64,000 bases of DNA, taken from assembly GCF_011440375.1 (NCBI RefSeq), contig NZ_JAAOIR010000001.1:1302001-1366000 (forward strand), in the 5' to 3' direction. The translations under genes were made by a program, and so were the position numbers. The notes under the pieces were generated by a model that made no database searches, had not been told where the DNA came from, and was given only the letters and a program-made list of their open reading frames with translations. This stretch comes from Halorubellus sp. JP-L1. Its GTDB lineage: Archaea; Halobacteriota; Halobacteria; Halobacteriales; Natrialbaceae. Of this stretch, positions 17,011 through 63,745 are shown one piece after another; position 1 is the first letter of the stretch; every line of letters begins with the position of its first letter.

Positions 17011-17171
17011 CGCGGCCGAGGTCGCCGTCGCCGCATCTGCGGACCACTCGCCGCGTCCGTCCACCACTCACTTCGTCCGGATACCACTCGCCGACACGGG
17101 AGTGTGCCGGGTTCGCACACCTACCGAGTCGTGGCGGCTCTTTAAGTTCGTCTCGCCAGTAGTCTCCCGAC

Positions 17172-18677
17172 ATGAACGGGCTCTCCGGAACCTCGGTTCT
17201 CGTCGTCGGTGCCGGGTTCGGCGGACTGTCGACGGCGTGCTACCTCGCGGACGCCGGCGCGGACGTAACCGTCGTCGAGAAGAACGACGGCCTCGGTGGT
17301 CGCGCCTCGACCCTCGAACGCGACGGCTTCCGGTTCGACATGGGGCCGTCGTGGTACCTGATGCCGGACGTCTTCGAGCGGTTCTTCGGCGAGTTCGACC
17401 GGGAGCCGACGGACTACTACGGCCTCGAGCACCTCGACCCGCACTATCGCATCTTCTTCAAGGACGGCGACCGCGTCGACGTGACGCCGGACCTCGAACG
17501 GTCGAAGGAGGTGTTCGAGTCCTACGAGGACGGCGCCGGCGACGCCCTCGAGCGCTACCTCGAGCAGAGCGCGGAGAACTACGAAGTCGGGATGGAGCAC
17601 TTCGTGTACGAGGACCGACCGCGCCTCCGGGACTGGCTCGACGGCGACGTCGCGAAGCAAGCCCGCGGCCTCACGCTACTGGGATCGATGCAGGACCACG
17701 TCGAGAACTACTTCGACCACCCGAAGCTCCAGCAGATCATGCAGTACACGCTCGTCTTCCTCGGCGGGTCCCCGAACAACACGCCCGCGCTCTACAACCT
17801 CATGAGTCACGTCGACTTCGAGCTCGGCGTCTGGTACCCCGAGGGCGGCATGGGCGGCGTCGTCGACGGCATGGCCGACCTCGGCCGGGAACTCGGCGTC
17901 GAGTTCGTCACGGACACGCCCGTTTCCGAGATCATGGGTCGCCGCGGCGGGTTCAAGGTTACCACGGAGCCGGGGGAGACGTTCTTCCCCGACCTCGTCG
18001 TGAGCGACGCGGACTACGCGCACACCGAACTGGAACTCCTCGACGAGGGCAAGCGGGCCTACGACGCGGACTACTGGGAGTCGAGGACGTACGCGCCGTC
18101 GGCGTTCCTCATGTACATGGGCGTCGAGGGCGACGTCGAGGAACTGGAACACCACACGCTCGTGCTGCCGACGGACTGGCAGCAGCACTTCGACGAGATA
18201 TTCGAGGACCCGGCGTGGCCCGAGGACCCCGCGTACTACCTCTGCGTCCCCTCGAAGACGGACGACTCGGTCGCGCCCGACGGCCACTCGAACCTGTTCG
18301 CGCTCGTCCCCGTCGCGCCCGGGCTCCACGACGACTCCGAGACGCGCGAGTACTACCGCGACCTCGTGCTCGACGACGTCGCCGAGAACACGGGCGTCGA
18401 CCTCCGCGACCGCATGGTCGTCGAGGAGACGTTCACCATCTCGGACTTCGCCGACCGCTACAACGCGTACGGCGGGTCCGCGCTCGGGCTCGCGCACACG
18501 CTCCGCCAGACGTCGCTGTTCCGGCCGTCGCGGCGCTCCGAGAGCGTCGACGGCCTCTACTACACGGGGTCGTACACGACGCCCGGCATCGGCGTTCCGA
18601 TGTGTCTCATCAGCGGGGAACTGACCGCGGACGCGGTCCGCGAAGACGCCGGTCTCGACCCCGTCCGCCAGGGATGA
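17172..18677 (+). CDS. crtD: Carotenoid 3,4-desaturase (CrtI/CrtD family)
   Basis: A 501-residue FAD-dependent carotenoid desaturase. The dinucleotide site is VLVVGAGFGGLSTACYLA near residues 10-27. The GGRAS segment is at about 43-47, and the C-terminal FAD region YTGSYTTPGIGVPM is near residue 460. It is followed by lyeJ and cruF in the same order as the bacterioruberin cluster described in Haloarcula japonica. It is therefore more likely the 3,4-desaturase acting on dihydro-C50 intermediates than the phytoene desaturase CrtI. Its stop lies inside a 47-bp tandem duplication and overlaps the ATG of a 16-codon mini-ORF. Confidence 0.88.
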   Translation: MNGLSGTSVLVVGAGFGGLSTACYLADAGADVTVVEKNDGLGGRASTLERDGFRFDMGPSWYLMPDVFERFFGEFDREPTDYYGLEHLDPHYRIFFKDGDRVDVTPDLERSKEVFESYEDGAGDALERYLEQSAENYEVGMEHFVYEDRPRLRDWLDGDVAKQARGLTLLGSMQDHVENYFDHPKLQQIMQYTLVFLGGSPNNTPALYNLMSHVDFELGVWYPEGGMGGVVDGMADLGRELGVEFVTDTPVSEIMGRRGGFKVTTEPGETFFPDLVVSDADYAHTELELLDEGKRAYDADYWESRTYAPSAFLMYMGVEGDVEELEHHTLVLPTDWQQHFDEIFEDPAWPEDPAYYLCVPSKTDDSVAPDGHSNLFALVPVAPGLHDDSETREYYRDLVLDDVAENTGVDLRDRMVVEETFTISDFADRYNAYGGSALGLAHTLRQTSLFRPSRRSESVDGLYYTGSYTTPGIGVPMCLISGELTADAVREDAGLDPVRQG

Positions 18678-18762
18678 CCACCGAACGAGCGCAGGGTTCG
18701 ACCGGCGAGGGAGCGCAGGGATGACCGCCGAGCGAACGCCAAAATCGACCACGACAGCGGTC
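18669..18762 (+). repeat. 47-bp tandem duplication at the crtD-lyeJ junction
   Basis: CAGGGATGACC starts at 18669 and again at 18716. The following bases (CACCGAACGAGCGCAGGGTT against CGCCGAGCGAACGCCAAAAT) remain similar, as does a final TCGACC. The unit length of 47 is not a multiple of three, so both TGA and ATG are recreated in new frames. Confidence 0.75.
18674..18724 (+). other. 16-codon mini-ORF linking crtD and lyeJ
   Basis: ATG at 18674 overlaps the crtD stop (ATGA), and its own TGA at 18722 overlaps the lyeJ ATG (ATGA). Its peptide MTTERAQGST... mimics the LyeJ N-terminus MTAERTPKST. It may be a decayed duplicate start that still couples translation of the two genes. Whether the peptide is made is unknown. 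Confidence 0.45.
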
Positions 18763-19599
18763 GGCGAGGCGCTCGCGTCCCTGCTCACGCTCTCGCGGCC
18801 CCGGTTCTGGTTCTACCTCGCCGGACCGGTCGTCGTCGGCGTCGCGTACGCCGCCGCGGACGTCCCCGACCTGTTCGCGCCCGTCGCGCTCGCGCTGTTC
18901 GCGTACTTCCTCGTCCCGGCGAACGTCTACCTGTACGGCGTCAACGACGTCTTCGACCGGGACGTCGACGAAGCGAACCCGAAGAAGGACGGTCGCGAGG
19001 CGCGGTTCTCGGGCGAGACGTGGGTCGCGGTGGTCGTCGCCGCCTGCGGCCTCCTGCTCGTTCCGGTCGCCGCGTTCGCGCCGCCGCTCGCGTGGCCGTA
19101 CCTCGCCGCGTACGCCGTCCTCGCCACCGAGTACAGCGCGCCGCCGCTGCGGTTCAAGACGACGCCGTTCCTGGACTCGCTCTCGAACGGCCTCTACGTC
19201 CTCCCCGGCGCGGCCGCGTACGCCGCCGTCGCCGGCCAGCACCCACCACTTGCGGCGCTCGTCGGTGCGTGGCTGTGGACGATGGCGATGCACACGTTCT
19301 CCGCCATCCCCGACATCGAACCCGACCGCGAGGCCGGCATCAGTACCCTCGCGACCGTCCTCGGCGAGACGCGGACGTACGCGTACTGCTTCGCGACCTG
19401 GACCGCCGCCGCGGTCGCGTTCGCCGCAGTCGACTTCCGCCTGGGCGCGCTCCTCGCGGTCTACCCCGTCTTCGTCGCGTGGGTCGCGCGCTCGTCGGTC
19501 GCCGTCGACCGCGCGTACTGGTGGTTCCCGTACCTGAACACCGTGATCGGCACGATGCTCACGCTCGGCGCGCTCTGGAGGCTGACGAATGGCGTCTGA
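18721..19599 (+). CDS. lyeJ: Lycopene elongase/hydratase (UbiA-family prenyltransferase)
   Basis: A 292-residue UbiA-type membrane prenyltransferase with about eight hydrophobic segments. The first Asp-rich motif is NDVFDRDVDEANPKKDGR near residue 77. The second is DIEPDREAGISTLAT near residue 198. LyeJ adds C5 units from DMAPP to both ends of lycopene and hydrates them on the way from C40 lycopene to C50 bacterioruberin. The start is the ATG overlapping the mini-ORF stop. Its end overlaps the cruF start by 11 nt, so the genes are translationally coupled. Confidence 0.92.
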   Translation: MTAERTPKSTTTAVGEALASLLTLSRPRFWFYLAGPVVVGVAYAAADVPDLFAPVALALFAYFLVPANVYLYGVNDVFDRDVDEANPKKDGREARFSGETWVAVVVAACGLLLVPVAAFAPPLAWPYLAAYAVLATEYSAPPLRFKTTPFLDSLSNGLYVLPGAAAYAAVAGQHPPLAALVGAWLWTMAMHTFSAIPDIEPDREAGISTLATVLGETRTYAYCFATWTAAAVAFAAVDFRLGALLAVYPVFVAWVARSSVAVDRAYWWFPYLNTVIGTMLTLGALWRLTNGV

Positions 19600-20509
19600 C
19601 GGCCCCAGCGCCGACTCGCGGTCGCTCGCGGACGCGACCGCCGACTCGTCCGAGCGCGAGCGCCTGCAGGCGCGACTCGACGAACTCGTCCGCGAGCACC
19701 GGTTCACGATCGCGGTCGTGTTCCCGCTCGTCGGCGCGGTCTCGCTCGTCGCGAGCGCCGAAGGCTGGTACCCCGACCCCGTCGTCTTCCTCGAGTTCAA
19801 TCCGCTCTTCGTGCTGTTCGGCGTCCTCGTGATGCGGCTCCCGCTCGTCGCCGGCGTCGCCCCGCTCGTCGACCGGAAGGCCGGCGTCGCGCTCGCGCTC
19901 CTGACGGCGTACGCGTACGGCATCGAGTACGTCGGCGCCACCACCGGCTGGCCGTACGGCGCGTTCGAGTACACCGTCCCCCTCGGACCGATGATTGCTG
20001 ACACCATTCCCGTCGCCCTCCCCGTGTTCTTCTTCCCGCTCGTCCTGAACGCGTACCTCCTCACGCTCCTCCTGCTCGGCGACCGCGCCGACAGCACGCC
20101 GATACGGCTCGGTGCGACCATCGCCGCCGTCCTCGCGACCGACCTCGTCCTCGACCCCGGCGCCGTCGCCGTCCGGTTCTGGGCGTACGACTGCGCCGCG
20201 ACCGGCACCTGCGGCTACTACGGCGTGCCGTGGTCGAACTACGCGGGCTGGGTGCTCTCCGCGACCGTCGCCGTCCTCGCGTTCGACCGCGGCCTCGACC
20301 GCGCCGGCCTCGGGCGTCGCCTCCGCGAGTGCGAGTTCATGCTCGACGACCTCGTGAGCTTCGTCCTCCTCTGGGGGGGAATCAACGCCCTCTACGGGAA
20401 CTGGATCCCCGTCGCCATCGCGGCCGCCCTCGGCGTCGGCCTCCTCCGAACCGACCGCTTCGACTTCGCCGTCGGCGACAGCGCACTCCTCAGGGCCGTC
20501 CGACGCTGA
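19589..20509 (+). CDS. cruF: Bisanhydrobacterioruberin hydratase
   Basis: A 306-residue polytopic membrane protein of the CruF carotenoid hydratase family. About seven hydrophobic segments are seen. Family-like blocks are LTAYAYGIEYVGATTGWPYG and GYYGVPWSNYAGW, and the DLVLDPGAV segment keeps the acidic residue typical of the group. It performs the last hydration steps to bacterioruberin. Its ATG lies inside the end of lyeJ. The first 40 residues are soluble and acidic. Confidence 0.9.
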   Translation: MASDGPSADSRSLADATADSSERERLQARLDELVREHRFTIAVVFPLVGAVSLVASAEGWYPDPVVFLEFNPLFVLFGVLVMRLPLVAGVAPLVDRKAGVALALLTAYAYGIEYVGATTGWPYGAFEYTVPLGPMIADTIPVALPVFFFPLVLNAYLLTLLLLGDRADSTPIRLGATIAAVLATDLVLDPGAVAVRFWAYDCAATGTCGYYGVPWSNYAGWVLSATVAVLAFDRGLDRAGLGRRLRECEFMLDDLVSFVLLWGGINALYGNWIPVAIAAALGVGLLRTDRFDFAVGDSALLRAVRR

Positions 20510-41641: not shown

Positions 41642-41791
41642 GAAACGTCGACCTGGCGGTCGTCGTATGCTCGTGCGGCCACCTTCCCCCTGAAACGCCG
41701 ACCTGGCGGTCGCCGTATGCTCGTGCGGCCACCTTCCCCCTGAAACGCCGACCTGGCGGTCGCCGTATGCTCGTGCGGCCACCTTTTCCAA
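41642..41791 (+). repeat. Array of the 50-bp hairpin repeat, three copies
   Basis: Copies start at 41642, 41692 and 41742 with a period of exactly 50 bp. Each reads GAAACG[T/C]CGACCTGGCGG then TCG[T/C]CGTATGCTCGTGCGG. The inner stem CGACC-tggc-GGTCG is perfect; the next position is T-T in copy 1 and C-C in copies 2 and 3. Confidence 0.88.
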
Positions 41792-42911: not shown

Positions 42912-42925
42912 CGCAGCCGACGCAC

Positions 42926-43125
42926 GAAACGACCCCCTGCCGGGAGCCGTACGCTCGTGCGGGCAGCTCCACTCCGAAACGGCTCCCTGACGGGAGACGT
43001 ACGCTCGTCCGGGCAGCTCCACTCCGAAACGGCGACCTGGCGGTCGCCGTATGCTCGTGCGGGCAAATACACCCAGAAACGGCGACCTAGCGGTCGCCGT
43101 ACGCTCGTGCGAGCAGGGGAGTCGA
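42926..43125 (+). repeat. Array of the 50-bp hairpin repeat, four copies
   Basis: Copies start at 42926, 42976, 43026 and 43076, again with a period of 50 bp. Copies 3 and 4 have a perfect 9-bp stem ACGGCGACC-N4-GGTCGCCGT. Copy 2 has CTCCC paired with GGGAG in place of CGACC paired with GGTCG, two paired substitutions. After the stem each keeps (T/C)G(C)TCGT(G/C)CGGGCA-like sequence. Confidence 0.9.
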
Positions 43126-63620: not shown

Positions 63621-63745
63621 GTCGCGGCCGGCGTCGACGGGCCGCAATGGTCGCGGCCGGCGTCGACGGGCCGCAATGGTCGCGGCCGGCGTCGACGGGC
63701 CGCAATGGTCGCGGCCGGCGTCGACGAGCCGCAACGGTCGCGGAC
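63621..63745 (+). repeat. 29-bp tandem repeat, four copies and a partial
   Basis: Units start at 63621, 63650, 63679 and 63708, each GTCGCGGCCGGCGTCGACGG plus GCCGCAATG. The fourth has two substitutions, and a partial fifth begins at 63737. Confidence 0.9.

Follow-up and report, generated by a model that had tools for sequence, protein, structure and literature searches.

In Halorubellus sp. JP-L1, the pigment genes crtD and lyeJ are separated by a 16-codon mini-ORF that shares an ATGA with each of its two neighbors, and this mini-ORF probably acts as a ribosome relay by which translation of lyeJ is kept coupled to that of crtD, a reading that draws on the sequence itself and on the comparison of related junctions. 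The locus lies in a 64,000-nucleotide stretch of this haloarchaeal genome (here, the window), where the opposite strand carries a phytoene synthase-like gene and the forward strand the following features:

17141-17145, + strand: TTTAA, a TATA-box-like word observed 31 nt upstream of the crtD start
17172-18677, + strand: crtD, encoding a bifunctional phytoene desaturase/3,4-desaturase (NF058655 CrtID)
18721-19599, + strand: lyeJ, encoding a UbiA-family lycopene elongase/hydratase, with a start homologous to that in the sister species
19589-20509, + strand: cruF, encoding a bisanhydrobacterioruberin hydratase and overlapping lyeJ by 11 nt, as also in the sister species

The TTTAA word is a probable leaderless promoter for crtD-lyeJ-cruF. 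In the excerpted Haloarcula japonica study, the transcript of the two genes behind the crtD gene c0507 was lowered on its disruption (PMC11946383), a result that fits a crtD operon. No TATA-like word was present at the usual distance near lyeJ in the window or in any of the 123 junctions of the family (0/123), and a separate lyeJ promoter was ruled out on that ground. A lyeJ start farther upstream, in the frame of the mini-ORF, is impossible because the phases differ, and the sister species also favors 18721. At the lyeJ/cruF overlap (19589-19599), a GGAGG-containing stretch precedes cruF (duplex, -11.2).

An earlier note on this DNA had described a 47-bp duplication, with CAGGGATGACC at 18669 and again at 18716, 47 apart, that sets an ATGA overlap at both ends of a 16-codon frame (18674-18724); these coordinates proved exact, and both overlaps are present. 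The duplication resolves into a triplication of units of 23, 24, and 23 bp (TRF: 18669-18739, period 23, 3.0 copies, 77% matches, score 91), giving the junction these features:

18669-18691, + strand: repeat unit A, 23 bp, holding the ATGA of the crtD stop and mini-ORF start
18674-18677, + strand: ATGA, in which the mini-ORF start overlaps the crtD stop (-4)
18674-18724, + strand: candidate relay mini-ORF, 16 aa, MTTERAQGSTGEGAQG followed by a stop
18692-18715, + strand: repeat unit B, 24 bp, its ATGA lost (TTCGA) and its extra base keeping the relay phase
18710-18713, + strand: GGAG, Shine-Dalgarno-like, 7 nt before the lyeJ start
18716-18738, + strand: repeat unit C, 23 bp, holding the mini-ORF stop and lyeJ start
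18721-18724, + strand: ATGA, in which the lyeJ start overlaps the mini-ORF stop TGA, 18722-18724 (-4)

The crtD stop TGA (18675-18677) thus falls within the first ATGA, and both joins of the mini-ORF are -4 stop/start overlaps of the kind found in pairs coupled by termination-reinitiation, while 43 nt separate the crtD stop from the lyeJ start. Units A and C agree at 20/23 positions, A and B at 18/23 with 1 gap, and B and C at 19/23 with 1 gap; if all units originally measured 23 bp, closure of the 16-codon frame on lyeJ would be owed to the additional base in B. The likeness of the mini-ORF peptide to the LyeJ N-terminus, which the earlier note had pointed out, is a by-product of the DNA having been duplicated and does not count as separate evidence.

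Halorubellus salinus, the only other genome of the genus compared (LyeJ, 83%), has one plain ATGA overlap between crtD and lyeJ and no mini-ORF. Outside the junction the two genomes are colinear; between the crtD stop and the lyeJ start the window has 47 extra bases, which the aligner split in two, placing a 43-base gap at the junction itself and the remaining 4 bases, in compensation, close by within the CrtD tail. The CrtD tail past EDAG is equally long in both, and the LyeJ starts are similar (MTAEGTHESTTTAV vs MTAERTPKSTTTAV in the window/sister comparison). With two genomes of the genus compared, the polarity of gain or loss rests on parsimony, which favors but does not prove a duplication gained in the window lineage. 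Given the single overlap in H. salinus, the relay would have arisen by duplication of that overlap, and because the sister's overlap is direct, the mini-ORF looks like a bridge preserving an older coupling, not a new coupling.

Coupling by overlap is itself well known. In excerpts of the Haloferax volcanii work, coupling was strict in 9/9 tested close pairs (PMC6728339) and near zero at 22 to 23 nt in 3/3 pairs (PMC10666635). Few gene pairs have been used to measure whether archaeal post-termination ribosomes require the overlap to be direct. In Escherichia coli, coupling needed no more of the upstream gene than its final 15 nt (excerpt of PMC10666635), so that a short frame can plausibly act as an upstream gene. 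We propose that the ancestral-type state was a single crtD/lyeJ ATGA overlap as in the sister, an arrangement that is strictly coupled in a haloarchaeon, and that the roughly 23-bp unit holding this overlap was tandemly multiplied in the window lineage (+47 bp, three units). If the Haloferax rules extend to Halorubellus, the resulting 43-nt gap would lie beyond direct reinitiation. Since 47 is 2 mod 3, the frame opened by the ATG at the crtD stop closes exactly on the lyeJ ATGA, and a ribosome would terminate at crtD, reinitiate to make a 16-residue peptide, and after a second termination start again on lyeJ. With no promoter-like word near lyeJ, such a relay would be the simplest route to preserved coupling over the 43-nt gap.

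The haloarchaeal termination-reinitiation pairs of Huber et al. (2019, 2023; PMC6728339 and PMC10666635, as excerpted) share with this junction the ATGA/GTGA overlaps, alike here at both joins, and the strong need of an overlap or a very short gap. They differ in that the known pairs are protein genes, whereas what stands between two genes here is a short frame lacking a coding signature, and in that two to eight serial reinitiations would be required here. In the open-access literature, we found no paper on a crtD-lyeJ mini-ORF relay or on a conserved archaeal relay like it.

The arrangement was not confined to the window. The family comprised 125 genomes, of which G047 (distant match only) and G124 (no match) were left out, for a total of 123 usable junctions including that of the window (30 + 93 loci). 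Under a strict chain rule, by which stop and start had to overlap at -4 or -1 in every join and each start had to be ATG or GTG, 24 of these junctions were direct overlaps, 64 were spanned by mini-ORF chains (one mini-ORF at 57 junctions, two at 6, and seven at 1), and 35 were neither. Comparison with relatives, which the earlier note had suggested, thus recovered the same architecture at 63 of the 122 other family junctions, unrelated in sequence and length: the mini-ORFs spanned 2 to 50 residues and the gaps 4 to 168 nt, with 229 nt in the seven-step case. At L028, L148, L152, L154, and L158, the relay begins at a GTG 2 bases past the crtD stop, outside the strict count. Among named junctions, mostly from other haloarchaea, 36 of 68 distinct ones were direct, 2 were relays, and 30 were neither (80 named loci, from which 4 weak or truncated ones, L107-L110, were dropped, and then 8/76 as repeats of counted junctions). 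The loci outside the family that a first pass flagged as relays, L041 and L081, are from Halobium salinum and a Halobacteriales MAG.

The family-wide relay pattern is not chance; the single case of the window could be. When gap sequences were shuffled and their phase randomized, with end codons preserved, the 63 relays observed at 99 non-direct junctions compared with a mean of 19.7 (s.d. 3.9; maximum of 33 in 1000 shuffles). As the choice of lyeJ start could itself favor relays, starts were picked again blind to the relay (the most upstream ATG, else GTG; more than one candidate at 55/123 loci), and 59 relays at 104 junctions were found vs a mean of 19.0 and a maximum of 31. The clearest sign against chance was the gap phase: where both ends were NTGA (n = 70), residues 1, 0, and 2 of the gap length modulo 3 stood at 60:7:3, and at the other junctions (n = 34) at 13:13:8. 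On a CrtD+LyeJ tree, the 70 NTGA junctions underwent at least 39 gap-length changes and 9 phase changes, random phases giving a mean of 20.6 changes (minimum of 12 in 300); for the 34 control junctions, there were 26 length changes and 10 phase changes, with a random mean of 12.6 and a minimum of 8. Counted by genus, the excess was modest (16/28 genera vs a null mean of 10.0 and maximum of 16). Avoidance of stops in the relay frame was ruled out as the signal: that frame was open in 62/70 junctions and the other frames in 57 and 61, with no frame-specific avoidance, and the signal is the phase. By phase and by chain counts, the arrangement is kept in relatives beyond expectation, as for a coupled pair, and the proposal that ribosomes could pass from crtD through the mini-ORF to lyeJ gains support, at the level of sequence, from the family architecture and from a gap phase so far from random. 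The tuning of pigment enzyme ratios that the earlier note also suggested is conjectural.

This phase also weighs against a neutral origin, by which slippage duplication in a tolerant stretch kept the frame by luck and lyeJ is translated otherwise or less. We regard such an origin as unlikely, albeit with several observations in its favor. Both proteins are at their least conserved where they flank the junction (the variable tail of CrtD and the variable N-terminus of LyeJ); tandem repeats are plentiful in the window, where 13 of 145 TRF rows score 91 or more; and where both ends are NTGA, one third of random gap lengths will by themselves bring the frame to a close at lyeJ. Nor is the window case beyond chance by itself: in 464 kb sampled from its own genome, relays occurred at 8/121 non-overlapping pairs (gaps of 7 to 130 nt, window junction included), near the 5.3 expected. 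A neutral origin leaves unaccounted for, however, a phase bias that runs over 123 family junctions and is absent where the end codons forbid a relay, and it sits poorly with the lack of a promoter-like word near lyeJ.

Counts at other gene pairs bear on how special the junction is. Relays were found at 6/57 pairs in genome G060 vs 1.5 expected and at 24/300 control pairs near the carotenoid cluster vs 10.0 expected (gaps of 7 to 130 nt), with one of these 24, L159, actually being a crtD-lyeJ junction; in the same comparison, for which gene starts were called by our own ORF caller, crtD-lyeJ pairs had 41/63 relays vs 12.7 expected. The control, own-genome, and G060 counts together indicate at most a weak general excess, and the relay as a genome-wide habit was ruled out by them. 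With no clear excess in the genome itself and a strong one at crtD-lyeJ, it is the junction that is special, not the genome.

The GGAG of unit B could instead be the useful product of the repeat, a Shine-Dalgarno motif for independent initiation at lyeJ to which the mini-ORF is incidental. The predicted lyeJ duplex is indeed -7.3 in the window vs -0.1 in the sister (pairing with the anti-Shine-Dalgarno sequence), and duplexes of -6 or stronger occur at 30/64 relay lyeJ starts vs 4/24 direct ones. Yet 34/64 relay junctions have no such motif, de novo initiation was not supported by Shine-Dalgarno motifs in Haloferax (excerpt of PMC6728339), and the phase is left unexplained, which together make this account very unlikely in our estimate.

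If the mini-ORF is a relay, its peptide should matter little, and the composition of the gaps is consistent with this. GC content by codon position was flat across the mini-ORFs (.655/.679/.669, vs.673/.457/.854 in the crtD tail), and their peptides were unrelated between genera, so that neither the conserved peptide nor the coding composition of a small-protein gene was found. We therefore give almost no credence to the mini-ORF being the gene of a functional small protein: the frame is uninterrupted and bears start and stop signals, but from genus to genus the peptides are entirely different in length (2 to 50 aa) and sequence, coding composition is lacking, and the sister has no mini-ORF. 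Since many relatives have chains with unrelated peptides, what is kept would be translation of the gap and not its product. In two pairs of near relatives, a base has been lost from the gap and a second overlap re-forms the chain: L024 has a one-base deletion relative to L026 and retains a two-step chain, and L158 shows the like relative to L154 (its first start lying outside the strict count).

Translation of the gap might instead shield the intergenic RNA with ribosomes, and so guard against transcriptional polarity, with no delivery of ribosomes to lyeJ. Archaeal polarity, probably via FttA, has been described (excerpt of PMC12548453), and a relay would cover the gap equally well. For such protection an open frame would be enough, without any need of a precise stop/start join, yet it is the exact join and its phase that are preserved; at 43 nt, the gap would also be short for polarity, and we see little probability in this explanation.

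The proposed ribosome relay finds its most extended form in another genus, where a perfect 29-bp array of 6.6 copies (L183:8753-8942) runs across the crtD-lyeJ junction. It makes up seven chained mini-ORFs, of which six all read MIETTREDHG and the other is 20 residues long, each joined by ATGA and the last one joined so to lyeJ; as the unit contains the CrtD tail, the overlap was multiplied there too. Junction arrays that hold the overlap and have a period of 2 mod 3 were detected by TRF in the window (23) and in L183 (29). The crtD stop is likewise crossed by weaker arrays, with a period of 13 in L195 and of 12 in L080.

Tentatively, such junctions may form a class of ribosome relays, peptide-indifferent mini-ORFs that are kept by selection and carry termination-reinitiation over gaps, born in at least two lineages by duplication of an overlap, and the arrays could be a copy-number rheostat. 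In such a rheostat, each added unit of the 29-bp type would cost one reinitiation step, lowering LyeJ while leaving it coupled to CrtD, which would make the tandem repeat a possible dial for setting enzyme ratios in the pigment pathway. With more than 60 natural junctions, gaps of 4 to 229 nt, and one seven-step array, the efficiency of serial reinitiation becomes directly testable, and the series points to an operon that can absorb insertions without loss of coupling.

The nearest parallels lie in mycobacterial MIRUs and in uORFs (both from excerpts of PMC12548453). In MIRUs, too, a short repeat unit at a gene junction carries an ORF whose coupling to the gene is at -4, and the units of the window and of L183 do carry an ORF with -4 overlaps to its neighbors. 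MIRUs are described as mobile, however, whereas the window and L183 units were made from the junction itself, and searches of both genomes revealed no dispersal over many loci: the own genome (G000) has two exact units, both at the junction, plus one match with 3 mismatches elsewhere, and the L183 unit occurs at 6 places in its genome, all within its junction. Origin from a dispersed, MIRU-like element was ruled out by these searches. As with short ORFs of the uORF type, the function here would lie in being translated and not in the peptide; uORFs start upstream of a gene, whereas a relay would be entered by ribosomes reinitiating after another gene and would span a gap.

Other tandem arrays were observed in the same genome. 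One at L225:4466-4671, built from 8.8 copies of a 23-bp unit at 95%, looked intergenic; another, at L229:1476-1569, has 31-bp repeats from a gene's stop codon (GAGTGACC...) that repeat the gene's last codons. Both lie near NTGA and, as far as inspected, are apparently not overlap relays. Within the window, arrays of seemingly related 50-bp units occur about 1.1 kb apart at 41642-41785 and 42925-43116 (TRF scores of 274 and 237), and a 29-bp unit is repeated at 63621-63743 (4.2 copies at 97%; TRF score of 232).
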